Below, in pieces: positions 9,984 to 56,351 of a DNA stretch of 64,000 nucleotides. The position numbers were made by a program, and so were the translations under genes. Numbering within the stretch: position 1 is the stretch's first letter; the number at the start of each line of letters is the position of its first letter. This DNA is from a sulfur-oxidizing endosymbiont of Gigantopelta aegis (GTDB lineage Bacteria > Pseudomonadota > Gammaproteobacteria > GRL18), in assembly GCF_016097415.1 (NCBI RefSeq), contig NZ_JAEHGE010000001.1, forward strand, positions 1,222,914-1,286,913, given 5' to 3'. The notes under the pieces were generated by a model, which did no database searches, was not told where the DNA came from, and saw only the letters and a program-made list of their open reading frames with translations.

Positions 9984-10477
9984 GTAAATATATTTATTCT
10001 CTGTTATCCTAAAAGCAGGTTCTAACTTATCCCCGAGTTGTCAGGTGCCTGCTTTACAGAGTTTATTAAGCCAATTCCTCCGTATTAAATCCAAAGCAAA
10101 AAAATACCTTAGTTCATAATGCCGCCGGTGATATTTTTCAGATGAATTCGATGCGGTTCGTGCCTCACCACATCCTACGTTGATGGGCAAATATGTCATG
10201 TGTTAGTCATAACTCGTAGGATGTGGTGAGGTACGAACCGCATCATGGTATATTAAACCTAAAAAAATCAGTTGAACCTACTGCGACTGCCTTATGCACT
10301 GAATCTTAAGGATTTTCCAGAACATTTTGACTTCACCCGTAGGTGACTACGAATAAAGCCAAAATAACCTGTAAAACCCTTAATCTTCAGCACCTAAGTC
10401 GCTCTCGCTACGATTCAACTGATTATTTTAGGTTAAAACACCTCAAGCCATACAAACATATTCAAAGGATTGAATTT
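9984..10477. other. Spacer with REP-like palindromes and repeat remnants
   Basis: No convincing gene. After mrp there is a weak stem (AAAGCAGG 10012-10019 with CCTGCTTT 10048-10055). A facing pair of REP-like palindromes occupies 10150-10244. A second repeat, 10258-10302, is the reverse complement of part of 27988-28043. The end of the same repeat seems to recur as ACTGATTATTTTAGG near 10418-10432. An open frame from 10343 reads into the RAYT gene but its first 45 codons look like non-coding sequence. Confidence 0.5.
10150..10244. repeat. REP-like inverted pair upstream of the RAYT gene
   Basis: A 30-bp unit beginning GATGCGGTTCGTGCC and ending CATCCTACG (10150-10179) is followed by its reverse complement with one mismatch (10215-10244), separated by 35 bp. 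The same unit occurs just after the RAYT gene (11007-11036), and variants lie at 23422-23511 and 56275-56303. This is the head-to-tail-inverted arrangement of REPIN/BIME elements. Confidence 0.75.
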
Positions 10478-11008
10478 ATGACTAATTATCGCCGAGCAAA
10501 AATCGAAGGTGCGAGTTATTTCTTTACCGTTAATCTTGAACAACGTTCTCAAAACAATCTCTTAATCGAACATATTGAGTCATTACGTAATGCATTTCAT
10601 CAAGTTAGAAATAAACATCCCTTTACCATTGATGCCATTGTCATTTTACCAGAGCATCTTCATTGCATTTGGACCTTACCCGAAGGGGATGCGGATTTTA
10701 AAACGCGTTGGGGATTAATAAAGGCCAATTTTTCACGGCAAATCCCAAGCGGTGAAAAGTGTTCACAAAGTCGAATTAAACGAGGTGAACGTGGTATTTG
10801 GCAACGACGATATTGGGAACACTTACTTCGTGATGAAGTTGATTTTCAACATCATGTTGATTACATTCATTGGAATCCGGTTAAACATGGCTGGGTAACT
10901 GAAGTAAAACAATGGCCTTATTCGAGCTTTCATCAATATGTTAAAAAGAGAATTGTGCCGGAAAACTGGGCTTCGGATAGCAATATCATTATTTCGGCGG
11001 GAGAGTGA
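10478..11008 (+). CDS. REP-associated tyrosine transposase (RAYT, TnpA-REP, Y1 HuH family)
   Basis: Single-strand DNA transposase of the IS200/IS605-related Y1 class that acts on REP palindromes. I place the start at 10478 because AAAGGA lies 8 bp before this ATG and the match to the family begins MTNYRRAK; an in-frame ATG at 10343 would add 45 unlikely residues. In the 176-residue protein the HuH pair is H60 and H62 (PEHLHCIW), and the catalytic tyrosine is probably Y129 in DYIHWNPVKHG, a very characteristic RAYT phrase. It is flanked on both sides by the same REP-like unit, its likely substrate. The downstream unit begins inside the stop codon. Confidence 0.9.
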   Translation: MTNYRRAKIEGASYFFTVNLEQRSQNNLLIEHIESLRNAFHQVRNKHPFTIDAIVILPEHLHCIWTLPEGDADFKTRWGLIKANFSRQIPSGEKCSQSRIKRGERGIWQRRYWEHLLRDEVDFQHHVDYIHWNPVKHGWVTEVKQWPYSSFHQYVKKRIVPENWASDSNIIISAGE

Positions 11009-11036
11009 TGCGGTTCGTGCCTCACCACATCCTACG
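11007..11036 (+). repeat. REP-like unit downstream of the RAYT gene
   Basis: Identical for 30 bp to 10150-10179 and overlapping the last two bases of the RAYT stop codon. With the upstream pair it brackets the transposase gene. Confidence 0.75.
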
Positions 11037-11085: not shown

Positions 11086-11112
11086 TGTCATAAATGTCAT
11101 ATAAGTGTCATA
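11086..11112 (+). promoter_or_regulatory. Pho box upstream of phoB
   Basis: TGTCAT repeats start at 11086, 11095 and 11106. The last two have the 11-bp period of PhoB half-sites (TGTCAT-ATAAG-TGTCAT). This implies that phoBR is autoregulated by phosphate starvation, as in E. coli. Confidence 0.8.
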
Positions 11113-23357: not shown

Positions 23358-23421
23358 TTCCAGCCGATCACATCATAAACCTGAGTTTTGCTTAACAAAT
23401 ACGACAAGTTAACTTAATAGT

Positions 23422-23511
23422 GGTGCGCTTCGTTCCTCAGCAGCACCCTACATTTATCTGCAAATAATGTATTGTAGAACAGTAGGATGCTGCTGAGGAA
23501 CGAAGCGCATC
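23422..23511. repeat. REP-like inverted pair between phoU and dcd
   Basis: GGTGCGCTTCGTTCC...ACCCTAC (23422-23451) and its near reverse complement (23482-23511) face each other around a 30-bp loop. They differ from the RAYT-flanking units at about five to eight positions but keep the same architecture and the CATCCTAC end. The spacer 23358-23662 holds nothing else I can support. Confidence 0.7.
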
Positions 23512-23662
23512 ATAAATAGTGAAAACTGAACAATACCGTTTATTATTAGCCAGAACTCAGGCTAATAGGCTGAAAATTTTGCCGCTTTGCACGATACTTG
23601 TTTTTATTGCTCATCACATGGATAATATGCATCCAAACATCAACAACACGAGTAATTCATAG

Positions 23663-27044: not shown

Positions 27045-27181
27045 GGGCACTCCAAATTTGAGAGAGGAAAATTTAAAAGAGCTATTATACCGCAAACACA
27101 ATTAGAGAATCTAGATGCAAGAAAAATAAGGCACCGATCAAACCTTGTTTACACATTTTACCAATTTGTCCTTATATTGGC

Positions 27182-27298
27182 TTATTTGATCTGTCCCAAA
27201 ATGTTTTTACCATGTTGATCGATGACTATTTCTTTGCGTATCGCTTTGAGTTGTTGAACCGCATCATCAATGCTCAAATGTGTTTTTGCAAGAATCAT
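27182..27298 (-). CDS. Possible 38-residue ORF, unknown
   Basis: Short frame reading MILAKTHLSIDDAVQQLKA at its start and ending HGKNILGQIK, between ynbA-like and purM on the same strand. The composition is protein-like and amphipathic, but there is no clear ribosome-binding site and no family is recognised. It may be the tail of a decayed gene. Confidence 0.25.
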   Translation of the reverse strand: MILAKTHLSIDDAVQQLKAIRKEIVIDQHGKNILGQIK

Positions 27299-55979: not shown

Positions 55980-56274
55980 ATCGATTGATTGAAGAGGGGT
56001 AAAAGGCGACATAAATGCCGCCCATTACGTTGACGGCCATCGGCTCCTCAGCCTGTGCCGTGAAGATATTGTAACAGGATCATTACCGTTGTGAAAATAC
56101 CTTGGGTGAATGGAACGGCTCTATCGTTCCAGAGGGCAAAGCCCTTTCTCTTCATCTGTTTAAAGTTAACATGAGAAACTAAAATGATAGGAAATACAAA
56201 ATGACAAAAATCACTTGAAACAGCCAAAAAAATATTTAGAAAACTGTCCGGAAAAGTGTTGACACATCACTATT

Positions 56275-56303
56275 GATGCAGTTCGTTCCTCATCACATCC
56301 TAC
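56275..56303 (+). repeat. Single REP-like unit beside IS3 copy 9
   Basis: GATGCAGTTCGTTCC...CATCCTAC, related to the units at 10150, 11007 and 23422. It is alone, without its facing partner; the other half may have been lost at the IS3 copy 9 junction. Confidence 0.6.
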
Positions 56304-56351
56304 ATTTTAAGTGTAAAGCAGGTTTTGATCTGTCTTCAGAATTCTGCTTAT

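Follow-up and report, generated by a model that had tools for sequence, protein, structure and literature searches.

The question raised by this locus is whether a RAYT gene with REP units on both sides accounts for the related REP units that are dispersed in the same genome. The gene is located in the window (the whole stretch of 64,000 nucleotides that was analysed), which is derived from a sulfur-oxidizing endosymbiont of Gigantopelta aegis. An earlier note on this DNA had viewed the locus as a live or recently live REPIN system. The part of this view which stands is that the RAYT is genuine and its REP unit is dispersed, but dispersal by the RAYT does not follow, as most of the copies read lie inside an IS-derived MITE. 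We consider it very likely that two separable systems share one hairpin here, viz. a REPtron and a short element (referred to as MITE-A), and that most of the dispersed REPs are the cargo of the latter.

The RAYT gene and the REP units beside it

The RAYT open reading frame is intact and its stop codon, TGA, occupies positions 11006-11008 (Table 1). The encoded protein is a member of the NCBIfam family REP_Tyr_transpos (NF047646), with a score of 207.7 bits against a cut-off of 80, and E. coli TnpA-REP (4ER8) matches it with an E value of 1.7e-48 across residues 1-175; its score with Pfam Y1_Tnp is 19.8, under the cut-off of 23. In the alignment with 4ER8, HLH stands opposite HMH and VDYIHWNP opposite VDYIYINP, both the HUH motif and the tyrosine region being thus present. 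The gene is found in a single copy, at a site between mrp and phoB, and this genome yielded no other close RAYT, the next-best match within it showing 24% identity only. The catalytic tyrosine presumably lies within the VDYIHWNP region, and the designations mrp, phoB, phoU and dcd are provisional, being in part those of the earlier note.

Matches to the RAYT (E <= 1e-10) are present in 17 of the 57 genomes compared, viz. its own genome, one of the 15 congeners (G007, with 59% identity) and others. It was possible to locate phoB in 13 of the 15 congeners (E <= 1e-60), and mrp adjoins it at 5 of these 13 loci (L386, L387, L389, L390 and L391); among 18 phoB loci, only the one described here has a RAYT. 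The RAYT with its own naked REPs forms a single-copy REPtron at the mrp/phoB site, which is absent there in the 5 readable congeners, the mrp-phoB gap of the congeners being too diverged for placing the exact boundaries of the RAYT insertion. This gap is variable among the congeners, and in G008 (L387) it is about 800 nt long with an extra small gene inside it apparent by eye. Upstream of phoB, the sequence TGTCATATAAGTGTCATA at positions 11095-11112, which resembles a Pho box, aligns together with the sequence downstream of it to the mrp-phoB gap of five congeners.

The REP unit beside the RAYT (family A), as read from its conserved end, is GTAGGATGTGGTGAGG[CTA]ACGAACCGCATC. When the window was searched with GATGCGGTTCGTGCCTCACCACATCCTACG, allowing up to 3 mismatches, there were three matches, at 10150-10179 (+, exact), 10215-10244 (-, 1 mismatch) and 11007-11036 (+, exact), and none in 100 dinucleotide shuffles. 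The gene is therefore located, as the earlier note had described, between a pair of units (10150-10244) and a further unit, which starts inside the stop codon because the RAYT reading frame ends at 11008. The units at 10150 and 11007 are identical across 33 nt. The RAYT is bracketed by the units at 10215 and 11007 with their GTAG ends pointing outward, and the extra unit at 10150 forms with that at 10215 a GTAG-in pair, which is the reverse of the usual REPIN. This pair folds into one long hairpin (z -10.3), and the lone unit at 11007 folds little or no better than shuffled sequences (58 of 200 equally good). A repeated element that is unrelated to the REPs (element D) separates the RAYT from its upstream REP, and it also interrupts a REP pair elsewhere; 24 ends of this element are present in the 469 kb examined, and it splits the linkers of REP pairs at C1:3640622 and C1:256435.

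The surroundings of RAYT genes were compared for 104 loci (80 belonging to named relatives, 23 which the search for relatives had yielded, and the present locus), leaving out the short or fragmentary loci L134, L141, L142 and L145-L147. A repeated GTAG unit is found near the RAYT gene in 88 of these, and where units are present on both sides (81 loci, own included) they show the same outward GTAG orientation as here in 56 cases. Six of the 8 nearest RAYTs have units starting with GTAGGATGCGGTGAG, which is close to the family A unit. In the comparison of RAYTs with REP groups, which the earlier note had proposed as a check, the similarity of the REPs tracks that of the RAYTs weakly (Mantel r 0.22, with 2 of 999 permutations as high). 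Because of the match to the RAYT family, the outward GTAG REPs on both sides, and the similar arrangement at the loci of the relatives, the RAYT and its flanking REPs can be recognised from sequence as a textbook REPtron.

Table 1. Positions in the window of the RAYT gene, the REP units and the elements associated with them (strand of the family A REP units refers to the GTAG strand)
Feature	Positions	Strand	Remarks
REP unit, family A	10150..10179	-	loop GCA; without MITE arm
REP unit, family A	10215..10244	+	loop GTA; without MITE arm
Element D	10253..10437	.	24-nt inverted ends, 92% complementary; between upstream REP and RAYT start
RAYT / TnpA-REP, 176 aa	10478..11008	+	HLH (HUH motif) and VDYIHWNP (tyrosine region) both matched in the E. 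coli TnpA-REP alignment
REP unit, family A	11007..11036	-	overlaps RAYT stop codon; without MITE arm
Family B element, phoU/dcd intergenic	23379..23562	.	inverted ends ACCTGAGTTTTGC.. / ..CCAGAACTCAGGC around GTAG-in REP pair
REP unit, family B	23422..23451	-	GTAGGGTGCTGCTGAGGAACGAAGCGCACC
REP unit, family B	23482..23511	+	GTAGGATGCTGCTGAGGAACGAAGCGCATC
REP-less MITE-A shell, 68 bp	27130..27197	.	tips present at both ends; lacks REP and target duplication
Truncated MITE-A copy	56275..56336	-	REP (56275-56303) and outer arm; other half replaced by IS end

Dispersed family A units and the MITE-A shell

The family A unit is present (<=3 mismatches) in 125 copies in this genome, and the dispersal beyond the RAYT gene that had been proposed earlier is thus borne out. 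At the same threshold it is found in 4 of the 57 genomes, and it is absent in the 15 congeners and in 8 other genomes of the same family. The genomes G045, G051 and G055, from the same class, contain 1-3 units each, all with RAYT matches, and as all four genomes with the unit have a RAYT, its occurrence in RAYT-less genomes, which would have spoken against the earlier proposal, is not seen. The arrangement of the dispersed copies was determined in a sample of 469 kb around the listed sites, where the first list included 100 of 120 sites. Most of the 142 A units in this sample stand in GTAG-out pairs (59 pairs); there are also 3 pairs in the GTAG-in form, 17 single units and one A unit that is paired with a B unit. 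The GTAG-out form accounts for 23 of the 25 adjacent pairs among the first sites listed and for 59 of the 62 pairs in the blocks that were read. The singles of the first scan were initially candidates for lone REPs; this was ruled out, as many of them have a partner with a longer loop.

The conserved sequence does not end at GTAG but is continued by GGGACAGATCAAACCTTGTTTACACTTCAGAT on the left and by the complement of GGGACAGATCAAATAAGCCAATTTATCTTTACATTG on the right. In comparison to shuffled flanks, this arm (viz. that of MITE-A) is present on the GTAG side of 97 of the 142 A units and on the inner side of 5, and it is lacking in all 3 RAYT-flanking units and in all 6 units of the GTAG-in pairs. 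The 45 units without a significant arm (32 in GTAG-out pairs, 6 in GTAG-in pairs and 7 singles) include those of the RAYT, the two upstream units being among the GTAG-in and the downstream unit among the singles, and some of these armless units may be RAYT products.

MITE-A is an element of about 148 bp with GGGACAGMTCAAA ends and a GTAG-out pair of A REPs inside. Its tips are recognisable at both ends in 30 of the 59 A pairs, and all 30 of these elements are 145-178 bp long, i.e. they have the short length and the lack of a transposase gene that characterise a MITE. Perfect 8-bp target duplications are present in 12 of the 30 (permuted mean 0.00, maximum 0, in 2,000 permutations) but not in the other 18, and no perfect duplication of 9 bp was found in these 30 elements; with a match of at least 7 of the 8 positions the number is 17 of 30 (permuted mean 0.60, maximum 4, in 2,000 permutations), the tips being allowed in this test, control included, to shift by up to 2 nt per side. 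Three of the 59 A pairs share flanks by eye with another pair (C1:3782054, C3:4619 and C3:250684). After removal of two shared-flank loci, 11 of 28 duplications are perfect, and all three pairs were dropped from the comparisons of linker with shell and of conservation, which are based on 56 distinct pairs. Duplications of this kind point to a DDE-type insertion of the whole element of about 148 bp. Very probably, a DDE transposase that recognises the GGGACAGMTCAAA ends carried the composite to many sites, with target duplications of 8 bp, so that most of the dispersed REPs are passengers of the element.

Of the two variant locations noted earlier, the unit at 56275-56303 is a diverged family A copy, as had been thought, but that at 23422-23511 belongs to a different family (see below). 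The fold of the lone 56275 unit is matched by 28 of 200 shuffles. The IS end which truncates this copy is CTGTCCGGAAAAGTGTTGACACAT, at 56244-56274. As the DNA query for this copy included the IS end, most of its matches outside of its own genome concern that end; the congener G003 gave 15 matches, those listed falling there, and only 3 matches in G006 are on the MITE arm and one in G055 is on the REP. A third REP family, GTAGGGTGGGCA..., shows 28 core matches in the 469 kb; one GTAG-out pair of this family lies between two A units and another adjoins a MITE-A end (L232 = C1:2884046; L286). The stretch C1:1028899-1033105 was considered as one clean element, and it was rejected because of the DDE_Tnp_1 and ISL3 sequences that it contains and because its outer flanks are mismatched. 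Other Y1 transposases of this genome (C1:215470, C1:3682180 and C3:247116) were also rejected as drivers of MITE-A, no GGGACAG end being found within about 1.5 kb on each side of them.

Exact tips are present in 19 of the 57 genomes; lone tip matches are at chance level, because the backwards control gave 7 matches in 6 of the 57. Only G000, G002, G006 and G009 stand out in this regard, and G008, G012 and G015 were accepted on inspection. One example is the congener G008, where an intact IS of 1,750 bp (G008:C152:3911-5660) has MITE-A-type tips, a transposase of 510 aa and a perfect 8-bp duplication (GATTTATA), and its ends resemble by eye both of the MITE-A arms past the tips. An autonomous element with MITE-A ends is thus present in this congener. 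Its transposase is a distant ISL3/IS256/Mutator-type DDE protein (28.4 bits with Pfam PF01610, cut-off 23; 39.4 with NCBIfam ISL3, far under the cut-off of 180). Matches to this transposase (E <= 1e-20) are found in 3 of the 57 genomes, viz. G008, G002 (fragments) and the present genome (broken), in which no intact transposase of the parent IS was found. A DDE IS of the G008 type is, on this basis, the probable parent of MITE-A. MITE-A would then be a short derivative of a DDE IS that has as its interior the GTAG-out pair of the RAYT's REP; the IS transposase would have moved it, and a REPIN would have been acquired by the shell in one or a few events.

The MITE-A shell is also present with other cargo in four congeners (G006, G009, G012 and G015). 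The cargo in G009 is a GTAG-out pair of GTAGGTTGGGGTGAGGCACGAACCCCAAC, and the shells in the other three contain several other palindromes, some of them GTAG-tagged. Both ends could be read in 9 congener shells, and a perfect 8-bp duplication flanks 8 of them, L352 being the one with none; this check left out the shells running off their contig (L317, L354, L381 and L383), and the tip variants used in it were typed after viewing the congener copies. G009 contains 9 units of the GTAGGTTGGGGTGAGGCACGAACCCCAAC type at 6 loci, each locus adjoining a shell arm; both arms are present at 4 loci and one arm at the 2 that are near contig ends. One of the six loci has collapsed to a single unit and another has a shortened second unit. 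No RAYT match was found in G009, whose draft consists of 460 contigs, from which the gene could be absent. G020, of another genus in the same family, has a RAYT and four GTAGGTTGGGGTGAGGCACGAACCCCAAC-type REPs on its contig, with none elsewhere (<=2 mismatches), and G056, from the same class, has two such units with no shell in the flank that was read.

Conservation of REPs within decayed shells

In the 56 distinct pairs the conservation jumps sharply at GTAG, but this column conservation is biased toward intact REPs, because the sites (100 of 120) were chosen by REP match. When the copies were collected from the tips alone, 37 ends had a REP-like unit; the REPs at these ends have 97.7% identity across 26 positions (25 of them match exactly, 9 show a single mismatch, and the others have 2, 4 and 7), and the sub-terminal shell shows 86.5% identity to the best of four consensus arms, with gaps penalised. 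At the rates of the shell, exact REPs would be expected in 2% of cases, in a calculation that treats the 37 ends as independent, although some of them are two ends of one element. Of the 55 tip hits, 52 were read, and the 15 which lack a REP-like unit include chance matches, IS ends and, by eye, about six shells with the REP deleted or truncated.

The excess conservation of REPs in old shells may be due to upkeep by the RAYT, to gene conversion or to selection, any of which could have kept the REPs near-identical after their dispersal. That ordinary purifying selection (on a terminator, an mRNA end or a protein site) or gene conversion is responsible, without involvement of the RAYT, has about an even chance of being correct. 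If conversion occurred between the arms, then these should agree in loop type, and they do so in 32 of the 37 pairs with 3-nt loops, compared to a permuted mean of 14.6; 34 of the 37 tip-linked REPs with 0 or 1 mismatch are also in accordance with this explanation. However, conversion tracts are not expected to end at GTAG. Alternatively, a DDE IS may have spread the REPs within the MITE, and the resident RAYT may then have kept them identical by site-specific replacement from GTAG to the hairpin end, while the shell and linker decayed. This is a tentative suggestion with a rather small chance of being right. If true, the RAYT would maintain the REP sequence, which would borrow other elements in order to be dispersed, and two more cases of such borrowing would be the REP pair of G009 in the same shell and family B in a second inverted-repeat element. 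Of the two roles which the earlier note had ascribed to RAYTs, mobilisation is thus not upheld for most of the copies, and maintenance is possible in view of the better conservation of the REPs than of the shells. The decayed shell next to an intact REP provides an internal standard for testing REP maintenance, with or without a RAYT.

It is distinctly unlikely that the RAYT has repeatedly inserted REPINs into pre-existing MITE shells acting as targets. The REPs do appear younger than the shells, and another species has a different REP pair in the MITE-A shell, but the linker, which forms part of the REPIN interior, has been inherited together with the outer shell. The type of linker is associated with that of the left and of the right shell (Fisher p 2.0e-5 and 1.2e-4; 22 and 20 of the 56 pairs classifiable, in classes defined after inspection of the sequences), and therefore the linker and shell have travelled together, in opposition to repeated REPIN insertion in old shells. 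Further, the junctions are alike in most of the copies aligned (not counted), and the REP-less shells among the 52 tip hits number only about six by eye. An ordinary REPIN system, in which the RAYT itself copied REP pairs throughout the genome, is highly improbable, for although the RAYT is intact with adjacent REPs, the A units are confined to RAYT-bearing genomes among the 57 and the pairs mostly have the usual GTAG-out form, the conservation runs past GTAG to inverted tips with 8-bp duplications, G009 shows the pattern of REPs in a shell with no RAYT match, and the RAYT of G020 has its REPs on its own contig alone. Most of the copies sampled here are explicable by another transposon; it is therefore advisable to look for embedded copies among the REPINs counted in other genomes before rates of transposition by RAYTs are inferred from such counts.

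Family B and the comparison with known systems

The REP pair between phoU and dcd had been interpreted earlier as one of the dispersed offspring of this RAYT. However, it consists of family B units (GTAGGRTGCTGCTGAGGNACGAAGCGCAYC, 64 copies at <=3 mismatches), whose stem differs from that of family A by changes on both sides. GTAG-in pairs make up 13 of 14 pairs in family B versus 3 of 62 in family A (Fisher p 4.9e-11), and an arm of another inverted-repeat element is present on the outer side of 25 of 66 B units and on the inner side of 1 of 66. The region 23410-23525 forms one long hairpin (z -11.7). Seven family B elements have both tips, and 3 of them show by eye perfect duplications of 6-7 bp; the phoU-dcd copy is not among them and has no clear target duplication. 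Based on the second REP family, the opposite dimer orientation and the other inverted-repeat element, the sequence argues firmly that this pair is not an offspring of the RAYT described here, and as there is no second close RAYT, family B would be an orphan or a guest. Units of family B are also seen in two further repeated contexts, whose flanks are identical or closely similar (L196, L198-L200, L188, L214; and L205, L249, L255, L263).

In comparison to the known REPtron (E. coli TnpA-REP, 4ER8, NF047646), as described in part in PMC2817692, the present locus shares the protein family, the HUH and Tyr regions, the single copy, the inverted GTAG REPs on both sides and the imperfect hairpin. 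It differs from it in having an extra upstream REP, an unrelated repeated element before the start codon, and its absence from this site in 5 congeners. According to the relevant passage of Nunvar 2010 (PMC2817692), known members of IS200/IS605 make no target duplications. The spread of REPs has been called poorly understood (in a passage of PMC8266576), and the duplication of REPINs is attributed to RAYTs (in a passage of PMC8049555). The dispersed GTAG-out pair with a short linker, of which there are 59 in the blocks read here, is shared with the REPIN in the account of Bertels and Rainey 2011 (PMC3116915); however, the pair here forms the inner part of a larger element, which has terminal repeats of its own and is flanked by 8-bp duplications, and for most of the copies the REP pair itself is not the unit moved by a RAYT, the conserved unit extending to the duplicated tips.

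Both dimer orientations and REP dimers within palindromes are already in print. For Anabaena variabilis, Di Nocera 2013 (PMC3733652) describes GTAG-15 dimers inside long palindromes that are taken as targets; TT and HH dimers and TIRYT ends with GGGGWSAS are also described there, and the term 'target site' is absent from the main text of this paper. That case and the present one have in common REP dimers regularly embedded in other inverted repeats and both dimer orientations, and the MITE-A tip resembles the GGGGWSAS motif, but the composite here has been transposed as a whole, and a DDE IS, not a Y1 gene, is its likely parent. Searches of open-licence papers brought up no case of a REPIN that travels in an IS-derived MITE with target duplications. 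With the IS-derived bacterial MITEs, such as MITEAba12 (PMC6382973, in part), MITE-A shares its short length, terminal inverted repeats, target duplications and a parent IS, and it differs from them in carrying as cargo a REP pair that matches the REPs belonging to the resident RAYT.
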